Source: a virus. From it: 35,122 nt of DNA. Each line of letters opens with the position of its first letter. The stretch's first letter is position 1. Position numbers and translations under genes: made by a program. Below the pieces are notes generated by a model. The model did no database searches and had not been told where the DNA came from. It saw nothing but the letters and a program-made list of their open reading frames with translations. Below are positions 1 through 35,122 of this stretch, piece by piece. The DNA lies in the IMG/VR virus record IMGVR_UViG_3300023196_002073, positions 1-35,122 of that record, one strand, 5' to 3'.

Positions 1-17
1 CCAGGTCTAGATACCCC
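1..17. repeat. Left copy of 17-bp terminal direct repeat (circular join)
   Basis: The 17 bases CCAGGTCTAGATACCCC at the start are identical to bases 35106-35122 at the end. When the ends are merged at this overlap, a minus-strand reading frame continues without a stop through the join, so the repeat is best read as the overlap of a circular or circularly permuted assembly. It does not look like a biological terminal repeat. Confidence 0.9.
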
Positions 18-326
18 ATCACCACCTGTAGTATAATTTAAATCAAAACTACTCTTAAAAGTACCATGATAATGGATATAATATTTTTCCATCATGTTCA
101 TCTGAGCATCCGTCATTGGTTCATTAACTATCTTAACTTTGTGAATAGCTTCAATACCATATTTTTTAACTATATTCTTTATTCTTTTCGAACCTGTTAT
201 ATAATCTGTTCTATTACCATTACATTTACCAACATACCTTGCTCCAAATGCGCTCGATTTTGTTTCAACTACTGTAATCAAGTAGATGTATGCCTTTTGG
301 TATACTTTATTATTTGTTTCTCCCAT
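1..326 (-). CDS. GIY-YIG homing endonuclease, N-terminal part (gene continues across the contig join)
   Basis: Reading leftwards from ATG at 326-324, this encodes the first 103 codons of a gene that continues in frame, through the 17-bp overlap, into 35105-34709. The joined gene has 240 codons plus stop. The visible GIY-YIG nuclease domain has AYIYLIT (residues 12-18), RYVGK (30-34), an arginine in GSKRIK (Arg48), a glutamate in MMEKYYI (Glu80) and Asn97 just before TTGGDG. These are the expected catalytic positions of GIY-YIG enzymes of the phage Seg/Mob type. Such proteins make a double-strand break in a phage relative that lacks the gene and spread by repair. The start has an A-rich leader and lies 18 bp after a 53-aa gene in the same operon. 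It is split only because the circle was opened here. Confidence 0.88.
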   Translation of the reverse strand, partial: MGETNNKVYQKAYIYLITVVETKSSAFGARYVGKCNGNRTDYITGSKRIKNIVKKYGIEAIHKVKIVNEPMTDAQMNMMEKYYIHYHGTFKSSFDLNYTTGGDGVSRP

Positions 327-1745: not shown

Positions 1746-1792
1746 AAGCAGTTCATAACGGGTTGGAGAGATTAATTACCTCTCCTCTGCTT
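1746..1792 (+). promoter_or_regulatory. Two-tier hairpin between tRNA-Thr and the polymerase gene
   Basis: The outer stem AAGCAG (1746-1751) / CTGCTT (1787-1792) encloses an inner stem GGAGAG (1765-1770) / CTCTCC (1780-1785) with a 9-base AT loop. It begins 4 bases after the tRNA and ends 30 bases before the preferred ATG at 1823. There is no T tract, so it is not a terminator. It could be a translational operator of the polymerase mRNA or an RNA-processing signal next to the tRNA; that role is inferred. Confidence 0.5.
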
Positions 1793-1822
1793 AATTCAAA
1801 ACCTGTTAATAAAAATATCGTT

Positions 1823-3091
1823 ATGAAAAAGAAACAATACTATTTACAATTTACAACAACATTTGTTGAAACAGTAGACTCACTACTATCAGAATACTAT
1901 ACTGACTTACCTAGAGATGCATTCTATACATTCTTCCATTTGATGAATAAATATAGCTTTTATACTAAAGATAGAGGTTCTGCATCAATCCATTCTAAAA
2001 TAATTAGAACATATATTACTAAGATAACTATAAATGGTGAAAGAATATATTTAGCCCCATTGATTATAGATGCATTAGTTGAAAAAGAAATTATTACATA
2101 CAAGAATCACCGATGTGATAAAAATAATCCTGAATTAAATTATACAAGAGTTTATAAATTCACTGATTTCTTCGAACTTAAGTTAGATGACAGCTTTATA
2201 GAAGTTCCAATAACTAAAACAATAGCTAACATGATAAAGAAAGAATATATTAGACCAACCAAGAAAGCTGAACGTCAACAATACGATTTACTTAAGTCAA
2301 AAAGATTAATATTTGATTTTAAAGCTGCTTCAAGATGGATATCTGCTAGAATAGATAATCTAACGCCTGGACAATATACAAGTTTACAAAGTTCTATTAG
2401 TAGAATGTTAAACAAAGAGATAAATGTTACAAAAGATTCACATACAGGTAGACTATTTAGTAATTTAACATTGATGAAATCAGAATTCAGAAGTTTTATT
2501 ACAATTGATGGCGAGAAGTTAGTAGGTATTGACTTAAAATCAGCGCAACCATATATACTATCTTCTAGGTTACTCTCATTATACCCTGACAATGACCAAG
2601 TTAAAGAGTTTTATACTTTATTAACTGAGGAAGATATATATACTCATTTTAGAAACAGATGGATTGAGCTAAATGGCTCAGCTAATTATACTGTTAATAG
2701 TATTGATGATGAAACATTCGAACCAATTACAGAAATAGTTGAAATAGCGGATAGGAAGGCTGCTAAGCTGGAGTTCATGCGTTTGATGTATAAGAAGACT
2801 AAAGGCTCAGTACCGTTCCAGGTTGTACTTAAGAATGACTTTCCAGAGGTTTACGGGTACTTAGTTGAAATGAAGAAGAAGTATTCTAAAGGAATAGGAA
2901 ACAATTTAGCTGTTTATTTACAGAAAGAAGAATCTAAAATATTCTTACCGGTAGCTGAAAAGTTTAAGAACTGTTTAAGCTGTCATGATGGGTTGTATGT
3001 TAAGGAAAGTGAAGCTAAAGAAGTTTATGCTGCATTGAGTAACAACTTTAAAGCTTTAGGTTATAATAAGTATAAGTTAACTTTAGAATAG
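1823..3091 (+). CDS. Minimal family-A DNA-polymerase-like replication protein, 422 aa
   Basis: Three family-A polymerase signatures appear in the right order. Motif A is VGIDLKSAQPYIL (Asp237, with the S-x-Q spacing). The fingers O-helix pattern R-x3-K-x3-(F/M)-x3-Y is RKAAKLEFMRLMY (Arg311, Lys315, Met319, Tyr323). Motif C is SCHDGLYV (His388-Asp389, in the place of the usual HDE). Nothing resembles a 3'-5' or 5'-3' exonuclease domain, and at 422 aa it is far shorter than T7-type (about 700 aa) or Pol I-type enzymes. The N-terminal 220 residues are basic and unrecognised. An in-frame TTG at 1763 exists, but ATG 1823 has the A-rich leader seen at other genes and avoids the hairpin. It is the only replication enzyme recognised here. 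Confidence 0.7.
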   Translation: MKKKQYYLQFTTTFVETVDSLLSEYYTDLPRDAFYTFFHLMNKYSFYTKDRGSASIHSKIIRTYITKITINGERIYLAPLIIDALVEKEIITYKNHRCDKNNPELNYTRVYKFTDFFELKLDDSFIEVPITKTIANMIKKEYIRPTKKAERQQYDLLKSKRLIFDFKAASRWISARIDNLTPGQYTSLQSSISRMLNKEINVTKDSHTGRLFSNLTLMKSEFRSFITIDGEKLVGIDLKSAQPYILSSRLLSLYPDNDQVKEFYTLLTEEDIYTHFRNRWIELNGSANYTVNSIDDETFEPITEIVEIADRKAAKLEFMRLMYKKTKGSVPFQVVLKNDFPEVYGYLVEMKKKYSKGIGNNLAVYLQKEESKIFLPVAEKFKNCLSCHDGLYVKESEAKEVYAALSNNFKALGYNKYKLTLE

Positions 3092-3100
3092 CAGTATTAC

Positions 3101-3218
3101 ATGCTAACTTTTGTTTTATTACTATTTAGAGACAGTAAATGAGCAAAGCCGCATTCTCATTGGTCTACAGAGCTTTTTTTTATGCATCGTTGCTAATGAG
3201 AGACTTACGCATAACTAA
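3101..3218 (+). ncRNA. Structured intergenic element, copy A (118 nt, two variable loops)
   Basis: This is near-identical to 14281-14398. Conserved elements are TGCTAA/TGAGCA (3102-3107/3140-3145, one mismatch here, perfect in copy B), inner TTACT/AGTAA (3119-3123/3134-3138), AAGC/GCTT (3146-3149/3172-3175) followed by a T tract of eight or more, and TATGC/GCATA (3181-3185/3209-3213). Eleven of about 13 differences between copies fall in two segments. In this copy, segment 3154-3164 can form 11 base pairs (three of them G-U) with segment 3192-3202, as a loop-loop or pseudoknot contact. It starts 9 bases after the polymerase stop. The T tract makes a terminator function plausible, but the conserved downstream hairpin goes beyond that. 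Confidence 0.65.
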
Positions 3219-3508: not shown

Positions 3509-4195
3509 ATGAATAATACAAATAATATGAATAAATATAAAATATTACATAATGAGTTATCAGAAGCTGTTAACGAGCTGAATATAACAGATGTTATTGG
3601 TTCTACATCAAATACTGATGAGCTTCTTGACAAAGCTATTATTTACAACCGTATAGGTTCTGGTACTACATCCGTATCAAGACAATTACGAGTAGGCGCT
3701 AATATAAGAGATATCCCATGTCGTCTCGTGGGGTTTGATATTGAAGTTCCTTCGAATGGGTTACTTATTACAACCCACCTTAAACCATCTGCGTATATGA
3801 GTCATGCGTATGAAGTTACTGTGATTTATGAATCTGGTGTAGAGTTAGACAAACCTAAAACTATGCCTATATTCGACTTATTCTCACATGATAATATTAA
3901 AATTTTTGAGTTAGGTGACGGGTCAGAACTTGTATATGATAAATCTATATATTTGCAGATTAAGAAATTTGAAGAAGATGGTTATTCTCGACATGATATA
4001 GCTGAGTATTTTACAATAAAGGACGAGTTACGAATACTTGCTGAACAAAGGGTTACCAAAGAGTTTGAAGATGACAAGGCGAAGGAGGAGTATTGGAATC
4101 GTCGTAGTAGTCGAACTTCATCAAAACATCATAGGTCTAGTTCTAGTTCTAGTTCTGGAGGTTTTGATTTTGATTTTGATGGTGATGACGATTAA
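3509..4195 (+). CDS. Protein with Ser-rich linker and acidic aromatic tail (SSB-like tail), 228 aa
   Basis: Residues 1-190 form a soluble domain of unknown family, with a beta-rich middle (LRVGANIRDIPCRLVGFDIEV) and a helical, charged section (about 155-190). The C terminus is distinctive: a basic/serine-rich linker (RRSSRTSSKHHRSSS...) followed by GGFDFDFDGDDD. Acidic tails with aromatic residues after a flexible linker are typical of single-stranded-DNA-binding proteins such as bacterial SSB and T7 gp2.5, where they recruit replication partners. The N-terminal domain does not show a recognisable OB motif, so the SSB role is only a hypothesis. The linker and tail are encoded by short DNA repeats (TCTAGT and GATTTT units). 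It opens the four-gene cassette. Confidence 0.6.
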   Translation: MNNTNNMNKYKILHNELSEAVNELNITDVIGSTSNTDELLDKAIIYNRIGSGTTSVSRQLRVGANIRDIPCRLVGFDIEVPSNGLLITTHLKPSAYMSHAYEVTVIYESGVELDKPKTMPIFDLFSHDNIKIFELGDGSELVYDKSIYLQIKKFEEDGYSRHDIAEYFTIKDELRILAEQRVTKEFEDDKAKEEYWNRRSSRTSSKHHRSSSSSSSGGFDFDFDGDDD

Positions 4196-5372: not shown

Positions 5373-5391
5373 GAGCATCGAAAACGCTCTT
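5373..5391 (+). repeat. Mini-hairpin element GAGCAT-n-CGCTCTT, copy 1
   Basis: GAGCATCGAAAACGCTCTT forms a GAGC/GCTC stem and starts 44 bases before ATG 5417. A near-copy, GAGCATACGAGACGCTCTT, lies before ATG 32627. The ends are conserved and the loop differs. The function is unknown; it may be an RNA structure in the untranslated leader. Confidence 0.45.
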
Positions 5392-5416
5392 AACAAATTA
5401 AAACAGATTATAAATT

Positions 5417-10888: not shown

Positions 10889-11281
10889 ATGCCAGCAGTA
10901 GTTAAATTCACAAAAGCTAAGAAGAAGCAATTCATAAAAGTATATATTGACATTAGGTTCAATGTATTGGCTACTTGTAAACGTATTGGTATAAGCGAAG
11001 GTTCGTTTTATCATGCTATGGAGTCAGACAATGATTTCAATGATGAGATTAAACTTGCAAACAAAGGCAGGAAATATTTAGTACAATCTAAATGGTTTGG
11101 AGGAGTTAACAATCCAAAGACAGAGAAAGCTTATCTAGACATGTTGGAAAAGAAGACTCTTGAAAGATTGTTGGAATTTGATGAAGTTGAAGATACGAGC
11201 GACATATCATTCGATATAACAAAAGAAGAATTTATAGAAGATGAAAAAGTATTTGAACCAGAGGGAACCGAAGAGGACTAA
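10889..11281 (+). CDS. terS: Terminase small subunit, 130 aa
   Basis: The N-terminal part has the helix-turn-helix layout of phage small terminases: VYIDIRFNVLATCKRIGISE then GSFYHAMESDNDFNDEIKLA, the typical '...T.A.....GIS..T...W...D..F...' pattern. A central helical segment (residues 65-95) would form the oligomer, and the acidic C terminus (EEFIEDEKVFEPEGTEED) would contact the large subunit. The gene directly precedes and overlaps terL. It recognises the phage DNA and starts packaging. An inverted repeat and TATACTTG at 10840-10870 may be its control region. Confidence 0.82.
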   Translation: MPAVVKFTKAKKKQFIKVYIDIRFNVLATCKRIGISEGSFYHAMESDNDFNDEIKLANKGRKYLVQSKWFGGVNNPKTEKAYLDMLEKKTLERLLEFDEVEDTSDISFDITKEEFIEDEKVFEPEGTEED

Positions 11282-12560
11282 GTACATTCGTCAGAGGATG
11301 CCATTGACTAAGTATTTCTCATCTAAGCAATATGAGGTATTCTTATCATTGCTGAACGGTGATGCAATGTACAACGTATTTAATGCAGGTAGACAATCTG
11401 GAAAGACTTACCTTTTATCACGGTTAGCAACTATATTAGCAGTTCTTAAAGGTAATGAGAGAACTAAGATATTAGTTGTTGCTCCATTTTCAACGCAAAC
11501 TGATACATTCTTTTATGATGTACTTCAAATTGAAGGGGTTGAACATTTGGTTAAAAGTAATCCAATATCCCCATATAAGAAGATATTATTTAAGAATGGT
11601 TCGTTCATGGATTTCCGAAGCGCAGATAATCCAAATTCAATCCGTTCTAAGAGTTATGACTATATCTTTATTGATGAGTTCGCATTCTTCAAGGCTGGAG
11701 CGTTTAACTTAGCGATTGGACCAACCTTAATTGCATCAGGTGAATCATGCCGACTATTCTTCAGTTCAACCCCATTAGGAGAAACAGGTGAATATTATGA
11801 CTTGATGGAGAAGGGTAAGGATATTGAGTTACCTGATTATACATTTAATCATATCGACTTTAGGAACAATCCAAAGAGTAATATGAAGTTCATTGATTTA
11901 GAGTTCTTTAGACTAGCTGAACCAGTGTTCAGGCAAGAGTTTCTAGGAATACCTATGTCAGATGGTGGTGAAGTATTCAGAAATTTAGATGTAGTATGTA
12001 ATATTGATAAGCCAATTAGATGGTTGCCAAATGATAGATATTGGGCAGGTATTGATTTTGGTCGAATAGGTGATGATACTGTTCTAACCATTCTAAATAA
12101 GGCTAAGGAAGTTGTATACATGCAGGAGTTCAAAGGTGATTGGGATAAACAATCTAAAGATATGGCAATCATTCTTAATGAGTACAAAGCGCTAGTATAT
12201 GCTGAATCAAATGGAGTAGGAGATGCTGCAATATCATCATTGAGAAAGTACTACAAAAAGATAACTCCAATCTTCACATACAATACCAATAAGAAGGAGT
12301 TCATTGAGAACCTTAGAGCCGACTTAATGTTGAGTAATATATCATTACCAACTAAGAAGTATCGTCCTAAATTGTTCCAACAGATGAGCAACTATACAGT
12401 ATCACAAACTAAGACAGGATTATATTCATATCACCATAGACCAAACGAGCATGATGATTATGTAGATAGTTTAGCATTAGCAAATTACGCATATGATAAA
12501 ACAAATAAGCAATTTACGAATATGATGTACAGTCAACCAAACGACTTTCATACATACTAA
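11241..12560 (+). CDS. terL: Terminase large subunit (ATPase-nuclease), 439 aa
   Basis: Both halves of a large terminase are intact. The packaging ATPase has Walker A AGRQSGKT (residues 49-56), Walker B YIFIDE (Asp145-Glu146) and the coupling motif SSTP (175-178). The RNase H-fold nuclease has Asp272 in GIDFGRIGDD, Glu322 in YAESNGVGD and Asp409 in HDDYVDSLA. It overlaps terS by 41 bases with this start. ATG 11298 (giving MPLTKYF..., 420 aa) is an alternative that avoids the overlap and loses only a basic 19-residue extension. The enzyme pumps DNA through the portal and cuts it. Confidence 0.95.
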   Translation: MKKYLNQREPKRTKYIRQRMPLTKYFSSKQYEVFLSLLNGDAMYNVFNAGRQSGKTYLLSRLATILAVLKGNERTKILVVAPFSTQTDTFFYDVLQIEGVEHLVKSNPISPYKKILFKNGSFMDFRSADNPNSIRSKSYDYIFIDEFAFFKAGAFNLAIGPTLIASGESCRLFFSSTPLGETGEYYDLMEKGKDIELPDYTFNHIDFRNNPKSNMKFIDLEFFRLAEPVFRQEFLGIPMSDGGEVFRNLDVVCNIDKPIRWLPNDRYWAGIDFGRIGDDTVLTILNKAKEVVYMQEFKGDWDKQSKDMAIILNEYKALVYAESNGVGDAAISSLRKYYKKITPIFTYNTNKKEFIENLRADLMLSNISLPTKKYRPKLFQQMSNYTVSQTKTGLYSYHHRPNEHDDYVDSLALANYAYDKTNKQFTNMMYSQPNDFHTY

Positions 12561-13012: not shown

Positions 13013-14251
13013 ATGACAGATAATAGAAACAAACAGTTGATGGCTCTTAAAACCCTTGCATCAGAGCATGATACAACTAAGAATACCTTGCTTAAGTATA
13101 AGAATGCTAAGAATGCTGCTCAGAGCGTACTACATCCTAATAGATATGCTTGGTTGGAATTGATTTATGATATTAGACATGATGCTCATTTGTTTAACCT
13201 AGTTAAGATACGTAAAGCAGCTATAACAGGATTAGACTTTTCATTGACTAAAGCGAATGGTAACATCGATGATAAGACAACATTGTTATTCGAAGGGGTA
13301 TGGTTCAAGAAATTCTTAAACTATGCATTAGACGCTATATTCTACGGTAACTCATTGATAGAGTTCTTCATAGATTCAAAAGGTGAATTAGATTGTGAAC
13401 TTATACCAAGGGAGAATGTTATACCTGAGCGACAAGAGCTTAAGACTTTACCACATAGTATCCAAGGAGATATTGATTATACAGCTCCTATATATTATAA
13501 TCATTTAGTAGAGGTTAACAACAATTATGATAAGTATGACTTAGGTGACTATATCACAGTATGTAGAAATGTATTACTAAAAGGTGAATCTGTTAATAAT
13601 AATTCGCAACATATTGAAACGTTCGCTCAAGCAATTATACTTGCTACAACAGATGAATCTGACCCTGTAGCATTGGGTAATATTATGGCTAATCTTGATA
13701 ACATCCGTAGAAACAGTAAGATGTTGAAGAATAGTCAAACAGAGATAGAATTTATAACAGCCGATAACTCATCAGCAGCAGCAGGTCTATATAAAGACTT
13801 CATGAAAATGATGAATGATGAGAATAGTAAAGCTATCGCTGGTGGAACAATGATAACTGATGATGGTAGTTCTAAGAGTCAATCAGATAATCACATGTTG
13901 AATGCGATGTCCAGGACTAAATCAGATATATCATTTATTGAGACTATCATTAAGAATGAGTTAATACCTGTTCTTAAGAATTTAAACCTTATTACAACCA
14001 AAGGAATTAAGTATAACTTTAATGAACCTGAGATACAAACAATTGAGCAGAAGGTTGATGTAGATAGGTTCTTAATAGAGAACTTCAAAGTTAAAGATAT
14101 TAACTACTTTATCAAGAGGTACGGAACAGAGTTGGAATACTTAGACGAGATTGAAGAAGATGAAGAGGTTGAAAGCTTTAAGCAAGAATTAAAGTTAGCT
14201 AAGAAGAAGTCTGATAGGTATGATATAAATTTAAGTTTAACTGATGTTTAG
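13013..14251 (+). CDS. Portal protein, Mu gp29 (DUF935)-like, 412 aa
   Basis: Position, size and pattern fit a portal. The N-terminal half contains LIYDIRHDAHLFNLVKIRKA and DAIFYGNSLIEFFIDSKGEL followed by IPRENVIPER, the typical wing region. The centre has TAPIYYNHLVEVNNNYDKYD, and the second half has FITADNSSAAAGLYKDFMKM and IAGGTMITDDGSSKSQSDNH, reminiscent of the conserved central part of DUF935 portals. The C terminus is acidic (EYLDEIEEDEEVE). Twelve copies would form the vertex channel for DNA. Its start follows the adaptor stop by two bases. Confidence 0.75.
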   Translation: MTDNRNKQLMALKTLASEHDTTKNTLLKYKNAKNAAQSVLHPNRYAWLELIYDIRHDAHLFNLVKIRKAAITGLDFSLTKANGNIDDKTTLLFEGVWFKKFLNYALDAIFYGNSLIEFFIDSKGELDCELIPRENVIPERQELKTLPHSIQGDIDYTAPIYYNHLVEVNNNYDKYDLGDYITVCRNVLLKGESVNNNSQHIETFAQAIILATTDESDPVALGNIMANLDNIRRNSKMLKNSQTEIEFITADNSSAAAGLYKDFMKMMNDENSKAIAGGTMITDDGSSKSQSDNHMLNAMSRTKSDISFIETIIKNELIPVLKNLNLITTKGIKYNFNEPEIQTIEQKVDVDRFLIENFKVKDINYFIKRYGTELEYLDEIEEDEEVESFKQELKLAKKKSDRYDINLSLTDV

Positions 14252-14280: not shown

Positions 14281-14398
14281 ATGCTCACTTTTGTTTTATT
14301 ACTATTTAGAGACAGTAAATGAGCAAAGCCGCAGTATGACTGGGATACAGAGCTTTTTTTTATGCATCCTTGATACTGAGCAACTTACGCATAACTAA
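14281..14398 (+). ncRNA. Structured intergenic element, copy B (118 nt, two variable loops)
   Basis: Second copy of the element at 3101-3218, at a constant offset of 11,180 bases with no gaps. Conserved stems are TGCTCA/TGAGCA (14282-14287/14320-14325, perfect), TTACT/AGTAA (14299-14303/14314-14318), AAGC/GCTT before a long T tract, and TATGC/GCATA (14361-14365/14389-14393). The two variable segments differ from copy A, yet again match each other: CAGTAT (14332-14337) with ATACTG (14373-14378), and GGAT (14343-14346) with ATCC (14366-14369). It lies between the portal stop (14251) and ATG 14414 and could end or modulate transcription there. Confidence 0.65.
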
Positions 14399-14413: not shown

Positions 14414-14836
14414 ATGGGGAAGACAGCAAATTATAATATACGAATTAAGAACCTTGATGCAATCCTAGCCGGGAACGGTTTAAAGGTTATCAAAGATGCA
14501 TCGCGAATGTATCATTTATTAATGTTAAGAAATATTCGAAAGTTTTCTAAAACAGGTAGACTCAAAGGTTCATGGAAGTTTGAATTATATGATAACTCTT
14601 CAGCATCAGTATATTCCAATCTTCCTTATGCAAGGTCTCAGGATAAAGGGGCTAAAATTAAGATAACCAAGAAGATGCGAAATTACGCATGGTATAAATA
14701 TAGTCGGACTAAGAATAAGATGTGGAAAGCGATAGCTATAACTAAGAAGAAGTATATCAAGCTACCTGCAAAAGGTTATTCAAAAGTTAATCTAAAGATA
14801 ATAAAAAAATTCATAGAGTCGAAATGGGGAAAATGA
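14414..14836 (+). CDS. gpG/gp10-like virion morphogenesis protein, first paralogue, 140 aa
   Basis: The ending LKGSWKF followed by SSASVYSNLPYARSQDKGAK is the hallmark of the Mu gpG / HK97 gp10 neck-tail family: a 'G.L..SW' stretch, then 'VYS..PYA...E.G'. The C terminus (KMRNYAWYKYSRTKNKMWKA; IKLPAKGYSKVN) is closely similar to the next gene. Proteins of this family help join tail to head. The leader follows structured element B, and its end overlaps the paralogue by 13 bases. Confidence 0.65.
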   Translation: MGKTANYNIRIKNLDAILAGNGLKVIKDASRMYHLLMLRNIRKFSKTGRLKGSWKFELYDNSSASVYSNLPYARSQDKGAKIKITKKMRNYAWYKYSRTKNKMWKAIAITKKKYIKLPAKGYSKVNLKIIKKFIESKWGK

Positions 14837-32565: not shown

Positions 32566-32579
32566 GGTTTTTATTAGTC

Positions 32580-32598
32580 GAGCATACGAGACGCTCTT
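32580..32598 (+). repeat. Mini-hairpin element GAGCAT-n-CGCTCTT, copy 2
   Basis: GAGCATACGAGACGCTCTT, similar to 5373-5391 (same ends, different 6-base loop), located between the hub stop and ATG 32627 (47 bases from element start to ATG). GAGC pairs with GCTC. Confidence 0.45.
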
Positions 32599-32626
32599 CG
32601 AAAACCAAAAATAAAATAAAATTACT

Positions 32627-34409: not shown

Positions 34410-34712
34410 TTAAAAGTCTGAAATATTCGGAGTTTTTTGTTGTAATTGCTTAAAAAAGTTGAAACGAAAGTATAGAATAGTATAACATTCGTACTGTTTG
34501 GCTTCTAACTTGGTCTTACATAAGTATATAGGCTCTAATTTAAGTTCACCCGAAAAGTTAATTTTTCTTAAATAGTCATATAATTGCTTCTTGTCACCTT
34601 TTTTAAAAGATGAATTATGCTCTTTCTCACGAATATCAATACGTTCTATCGTTGTTTTACCGATGTAACGTATTGTATCATTGATTGTTATGCTGTATAC
34701 GACATGTTTCAT
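34410..34712 (-). CDS. Small GIY-YIG endonuclease-domain protein, 100 aa
   Basis: The GIY-YIG fold is compact but complete: VVYSITINDTIRYIGKT (Tyr6, then Tyr16-Ile-Gly18), Arg24/Arg28 in ERIDIREKEHNSSF with His32, and Glu75 in KLEAKQYECYTILYFRFNFF, where a final helix usually carries the metal-binding glutamate. No DNA-binding extension is present, unlike the neighbouring enzyme. The start overlaps the stop of the homing endonuclease gene (ATGA), so translation is likely coupled. It could be a freestanding nicking enzyme, or a mobile-intron-type fragment. Confidence 0.75.
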   Translation of the reverse strand: MKHVVYSITINDTIRYIGKTTIERIDIREKEHNSSFKKGDKKQLYDYLRKINFSGELKLEPIYLCKTKLEAKQYECYTILYFRFNFFKQLQQKTPNISDF

Positions 34713-35122
34713 TTTTTACGAGGTTTATACTTATTTGCAACTCCCATTGTTAAACTCCAACCTTTATGGTGATGTCGCTTACCCAATACAACTGCTGAAA
34801 TATGACTAGCGCTCAAACCAAATTGTTCACAGAAATTAGATTGAGTATCTTCAACCCAACCATGGTCTTTGTGATAAAGTTTAACTTTACCGGTATTACA
34901 TACTGTAGCATTCATAGCATCTTCGATTGTTAAAGACCAACCTTTTGTATGAAGTATCTTACCTAGTACAACAGCTGAAAGATTACCCGTATGCAAATCA
35001 TATCTAATTCGTAAATCATACATTGTACATTTTTCAGTAACTATCGTATCGTCAACTAATTTATACCATGTTCTAATTGTTGAATCATAGTTACTATTTA
35101 ATTCACCAGGTCTAGATACCCC
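34709..35122 (-). CDS. GIY-YIG homing endonuclease, C-terminal DNA-binding part (continues from 326-1)
   Basis: This is the downstream part of the gene that begins at base 326 and crosses the contig join. The frame is open from 35122 down to the stop TGA at 34711-34709. It has a NUMOD3-like stretch (GGDGVSRPGELNS), then two imperfect DNA-binding repeats of about 45 residues. The first ends NLSAVVLGKILHTKGWSLT, the second GLSASHISAVVLGKRHHHKG then WSLT. Such helix-turn-helix modules give homing endonucleases their site specificity. An internal ATG at 35023 could be mistaken for the start, but the N-terminal nuclease domain lies across the join. Confidence 0.87.
   Translation of the reverse strand, partial: GVSRPGELNSNYDSTIRTWYKLVDDTIVTEKCTMYDLRIRYDLHTGNLSAVVLGKILHTKGWSLTIEDAMNATVCNTGKVKLYHKDHGWVEDTQSNFCEQFGLSASHISAVVLGKRHHHKGWSLTMGVANKYKPRKK
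35106..35122. repeat. Right copy of 17-bp terminal direct repeat (circular join)
   Basis: CCAGGTCTAGATACCCC, identical to bases 1-17. One of the two copies is redundant in the circular map. Confidence 0.9.

Follow-up and report, generated by a model that had tools for sequence, protein, structure and literature searches.

Two nearly identical 118-nt cassettes lie between genes in a phage genome, and the question that they raise is whether they specify a functional RNA and, if so, of what kind. The stretch of DNA analyzed, hereafter the window, is 35,122 nt long and is the genome of a myovirus-type phage. Genes recognized in it include those for the terminase (11241-12560), the portal protein (13013-14251), head proteins, the tail sheath, the tape measure, and the baseplate hub. 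Relatives of the portal protein are found in phages of Bacteroides, Flavobacterium, and other Bacteroidota, and the host is probably a member of the Bacteroidota. Because an exact 17-bp direct repeat, CCAGGTCTAGATACCCC, is common to both window ends (1-17 and 35106-35122), the window probably represents an entire circular genome, ~35,105 bp in size (about 35.1 kb). The cassette occurs in two direct copies only, both oriented in the direction of the genes, with copy B sitting within the run of structural genes. Coordinates of the cassettes and their parts are collected in Table 1.

Table 1. Features of the two cassettes, in window coordinates.
Feature	Position	Strand	Description
Copy A	3101..3218	+	Follows the 442-aa protein gene (stop 3091) and precedes the gene at 3509
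Copy B	14281..14398	+	Follows the portal gene (phrog_113, stop 14251) and precedes the next head/neck gene (start 14414)
Predicted 5' hairpin H1	3109..3148	+	TTTTGTTT..GAGCAAAG, inner TTACT/AGTAA; identical in both copies
V1 of copy A	3154..3165	+	6 of 12 positions differ from copy B
V2 of copy A	3189..3202	+	5 of 14 positions differ from copy B
V1 of copy B	14332..14346	+	CAGTAT (14332-14337) and GGGAT (14342-14346); 5' side of the V stem
V2 of copy B	14366..14378	+	ATCCT (14366-14370) and ATACTG (14373-14378); 3' side of the V stem
Conserved segment ACAGAGCTTTTTTTTATGC	3167..3185 (copy B: 14347-14365)	+	Lies in the V-stem loop of each copy; includes the T8 tract
Hairpin b, TATGC/GCATA	3181..3213	+	Encloses V2; invariant; about -2.5 kcal/mol

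The alignment of the two copies needs no gap across the 118 nt and shows identity at 106 positions, one more than the approximate count of 105 in the original prediction. The twelve differences, in copy A numbering, fall at 3106; at 3154, 3156, 3158, 3160, 3164, and 3165; and at 3189, 3193, 3196, 3201, and 3202. Eleven of the twelve are thus confined to V1 and V2, in agreement with the earlier description of 11 out of about 13, and permutation reached the observed level of clustering in 0 of 2000 cases. Ten of the twelve are transversions. The 5' border of the similarity is sharp, the upstream flanks being dissimilar right up to 3101, while on the 3' side a weak similarity continues to 3229/14409 and fades there.

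In each copy the two variable segments are able to pair with one another. The 11-bp helix proposed for copy A (3154-3164 with 3192-3202) is confirmed, with G-U accounting for three of its 11 pairs, as are the helices proposed for copy B, CAGTAT/ATACTG and GGAT/ATCC, the second of which is lengthened by one G-U pair to GGGAT/ATCCT. Pairing between cognate arms is worth -13.0 kcal/mol in copy A and -12.2 kcal/mol in copy B, versus -4.5 and -5.0 kcal/mol for arms combined across the copies. When the 11 variable bases were randomized and the rest of the sequence was kept, pairing as strong as that observed had P = 0.031 for copy A, 0.049 for copy B, and 0.007 for the sum of both. Copy-specific complementarity therefore appears to exceed chance, although the P values are moderate and the pairing was picked after looking at the sequences, so that the result is suggestive rather than proof.

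The differences had also been described as compensating change, and in the covariation sense this description fails. The register of the copy A helix fits only 4 of 11 pairs in copy B, and the register of copy B fits 6 of 11 in copy A. In element numbering, paired columns sum to 156 in copy A but to 150 and 152 in copy B. Since the helices occupy different registers, there is no column-by-column compensation, and pairing is restored only through shifting; a classical two-sided change occurs at one column pair only, 3154-3196, from T-A to G-C. True covariation is absent because only two sequences exist and their registers differ. On the minus strand, pairing weakens to -8.5 kcal/mol (A) and -11.3 kcal/mol (B), the advantage of the plus strand being due to its G-U pairs, and this dependence on G-U favors an RNA read in the direction of the genes over a DNA cruciform.

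Folded as a whole, the element is slightly better than shuffled sequences on the plus strand (z = -1.24 for A and -1.91 for B), with corresponding minus-strand values of -0.45 and -2.47; copy B, taken alone, thus folds no worse on the minus strand than on the plus strand. H1 is no more stable than expected by chance (P = 0.17). At minimum energy, the element folds as a nested hairpin whose loop contains the U-tract. In all six frames over the element, codon scores range from -15 to -61, versus +13.6 on average for real genes, and the element looks non-coding throughout; three small open reading frames (40 aa, 27 aa, and a 13-aa leader) were rejected by codon score and start context. No convincing promoter was found for the cassettes. 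A sigma-70-like match near each copy says little because this AT-rich genome abounds in such matches (126 in 16 kb versus 93 expected), and Bacteroidota-type promoter matches occur at chance level. Taken with the cognate-only pairing, the use of G-U pairs, and the lack of an Rfam family, the non-coding character makes the functional RNA that was originally predicted plausible, on the plus strand.

Relatives of the cassette were sought by several routes. No covariance model of Rfam (release 15) scores above its gathering cut-off over the element, the only such match in the window being the tRNA, and loosening the threshold adds only weak chance matches over the element. Exact and gapped DNA patterns in viral and genome contig collections found no relative, nor did BLASTN against phage and plasmid collections. 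The sole pattern match, in contig L003, was rejected: the contig is unrelated, the match lies within a coding frame, and its covariance model E-value is 4. Patterns, BLAST, and the covariance model together yield no homologue beyond the two copies in these collections, which may omit records very near the window, and the cassette is at present an orphan known from two sequences. The genomic setting can nevertheless be compared. In the nearest relatives, contigs L004 and L012, the terminase is 52% and 55% identical to that of the window, and the portal protein 49% and 41% identical. In L004 nothing is inserted at this place, and the portal stop overlaps the start of the gene that follows, which is 55% identical to the gene starting at 14414 in the window; in L012 the portal gene likewise overlaps its neighbor without an insert. 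Because both relatives lack the insert, comparison of the loci suggests that copy B arose as an insertion of ~160 nt in this lineage only, or else was lost from both relatives. A scan of genome contigs with an alignment of the terminases gave no related provirus.

We tentatively prefer to view the cassettes as a duplicated, lineage-specific, plus-strand RNA element that acts in cis at gene boundaries. The cassette would be transcribed from the plus strand together with the adjoining genes. Its RNA is modeled as a conserved 5' hairpin followed by a copy-specific stem that would display a conserved U-rich loop, ACAGAGCUUUUUUUUAUGC. Action would most likely be in cis on the transcript at the gene boundary, where the conserved scaffold and loop might recruit or block a protein, a nuclease, or RNA polymerase, while the variable stem would need only to pair. 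The strict conservation outside the stem suggests that the scaffold is recognized by a factor, unless it merely reflects a recent duplication.

That last proviso leads to the main alternative, which we regard as somewhat unlikely: the cassette may be a recently duplicated intergenic sequence, either non-functional or mobile, whose arm complementarity is partly due to chance. It would account for a lineage-specific sequence with relatives nowhere found and an insertion absent from the nearest relatives, and it draws further strength from a joint pairing probability that is only 0.007 and post hoc, and from the difference in registers. A neutral copy, however, would not place 11 of 12 changes, most of them transversions, in two short arms. 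The open reading frames scanned, which make up about two thirds of the window's total, include no recombinase or transposase, and no terminal repeats or target-site duplications of the cassette are clear by eye. A diversity-generating retroelement was rejected by inspection, on the absence of a reverse transcriptase from the same scanned frames and because the differences do not fall at template adenines in either copy; for attC, bridge-RNA, and ribozyme ideas, the supporting feature is absent. Another proposal, that the cassette is a DNA site for recombination, replication, or protein binding with the variable arms as half-sites, would suit inverted arms that flank an A/T tract, as well as two direct copies in intergenic position. 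We think it quite improbable, since a DNA cruciform would not show the use of G-U pairs and the weaker pairing of the other strand; the scanned frames contain no integrase, and GC skew, which tracks gene strand, makes a clear turn at neither copy.

Two further explanations accept an RNA but assign it a different structure or role. In the loop-loop or pseudoknot arrangement of the original prediction, V1 and V2 would lie in the loops of the hairpins AAAGC/GCUUU (hairpin a) and UAUGC/GCAUA (hairpin b) and bind each other, within or between molecules of the same copy, so as to give two mutually orthogonal RNAs. The arms do pair, and pair weakly across copies; the topology is possible, with the hairpins on either side of V1 and V2 and with 4-7 nt linkers that could span an 11-bp contact; and the 6-bp helix TTATGC/GCATAA around V2 is somewhat unusual in comparison with shuffled sequences (P = 0.016). 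The helix around V1, however, is not unusual (P = 0.09), the hairpins are weak (about -1.1 kcal/mol for a and about -2.5 for b), and the nested hairpin gives the same V helix while requiring no additional helices. Formation of hairpin b would turn V into a loop-loop contact, but its GCAT can pair alternatively with ATGC at 3101-3104. As both hairpins are identical in the two copies, they provide no comparative evidence, and being weak as well as invariant, they do not establish the loop-loop topology, which we consider unlikely. Improbable, too, is an intrinsic terminator or attenuator in which release would occur at the T8 tract, possibly coupled to a 13-codon leader peptide, MLTFVLLLFRDSK. 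The T8 tract is indeed on the coding strand, and the leader frame, with ATG at 3101 and 14281, begins precisely where the similarity does on the 5' side and is uninterrupted in both copies, its sole difference (3106) being synonymous. The best hairpin that ends at the tract, however, reaches only -0.5 kcal/mol in copy A, and none exists in copy B, versus -6 to -20 kcal/mol (-6.8, -8.5, and -20.4) for other intrinsic terminators of this phage, and the V helix would form only once the T tract had already been passed, so that the attenuator or terminator suggested earlier is not supported. The leader lacks an A-rich start context (35-40% A versus 63% for genes of the phage), and its codon score is low. 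An antisense guide to the phage's own genome was also evaluated. Exact 12-nt complements exist in the phage genome for V1 of both copies (P = 0.02-0.03), but hybrid energies are not significant (P = 0.08-0.1) and the matching parts of V1 differ between copies, and this idea was rejected.

If the cassette is indeed a cis-acting RNA, as we prefer, the closest analogies in mode of action would be with repeated phage operon elements, such as the put RNAs of HK022 or the PeSL cassettes of T4. The two put RNAs, putL and putR, are similar short cis-acting phage RNAs, ~70 nt in length with two stem-loops each, that lie before operons and downstream of early promoters and bind the zinc-binding domain of E. 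coli RNA polymerase (PMC9378689). The cassettes share with them the presence of two similar copies, two predicted stem-loops, and putative cis action, but differ in having no match to them in the sequence searches or in Rfam and in that copy B lies within a structural gene run. The PeSL (promoter early stem-loop) cassettes of T4-like phages are repeated intergenic units in which an early promoter is joined to a terminator stem-loop (cited in PMC4503421). The resemblance is a short, repeated intergenic cassette with stem-loops inserted between phage genes; with two copies only rather than many, no terminator hairpin, and no convincing promoter, the present cassettes do not qualify as PeSL. A more ambitious interpretation is a new class of phage RNA in which an invariant scaffold bears two variable arms that pair solely inside their own copy, giving the genome two selected, mutually orthogonal, self-recognizing RNAs, and this we consider highly doubtful. 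If the cassette RNA is real, it would be of a kind not yet described in phages, almost wholly fixed but for two arms that vary in concert from one copy to the other. This would point to selection against cross-talk of the two copies, and it would offer a natural pair of orthogonal RNA parts. The packaging RNA (pRNA) of phi29-type phages is another phage RNA of ~120 nt with mutually complementary loops. Unlike phi29, however, the present phage has a two-subunit terminase and no phi29-like genomic or motor context, and unlike pRNA, the cassette occurs in two copies, has long variable arms, and lacks an Rfam match.

Several other features were noted in the window and its relatives. An HNH endonuclease gene (I-HmuI/NUMOD-like), encoded on the minus strand as 326..1 followed by 35105..34709, appears to span the circular join, and its length across the join is divisible by three. 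The gene that precedes copy A (1763-3091) lies just downstream of a tRNA-Thr gene (1671-1743); its 442-aa product contains a conserved-looking motif, GIDLKSAQPYIL, and has no Pfam match and only a weak PHROG match, to a family of unknown function. A leader sequence, TTAGGACATTAGCAA(A)TAAATAA.., recurs at window 3474, 4199, 4427, and 4906 (repeat families D2, D9, and D15), ahead of several start codons, and is a candidate for a shared translation or regulatory leader. At 3701-4752 of contig L012, the terminase large-subunit gene contains an in-frame insert of ~350 aa placed exactly at the Walker A motif; it has Hom_end and LAGLIDADG_3 homing-endonuclease domains and is intein-like. The strong intrinsic terminator of -20.4 kcal/mol, GCCCTGTA...TACAGGGC TTTTT, is located at 1127-1175 in a long intergenic stretch (1114-1670). 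The segments GAGC....CGCTCTTAACAA and GAGACGCTCTTCG, at 5375-5405 and 32575-32602, resemble boxA-like antitermination motifs.
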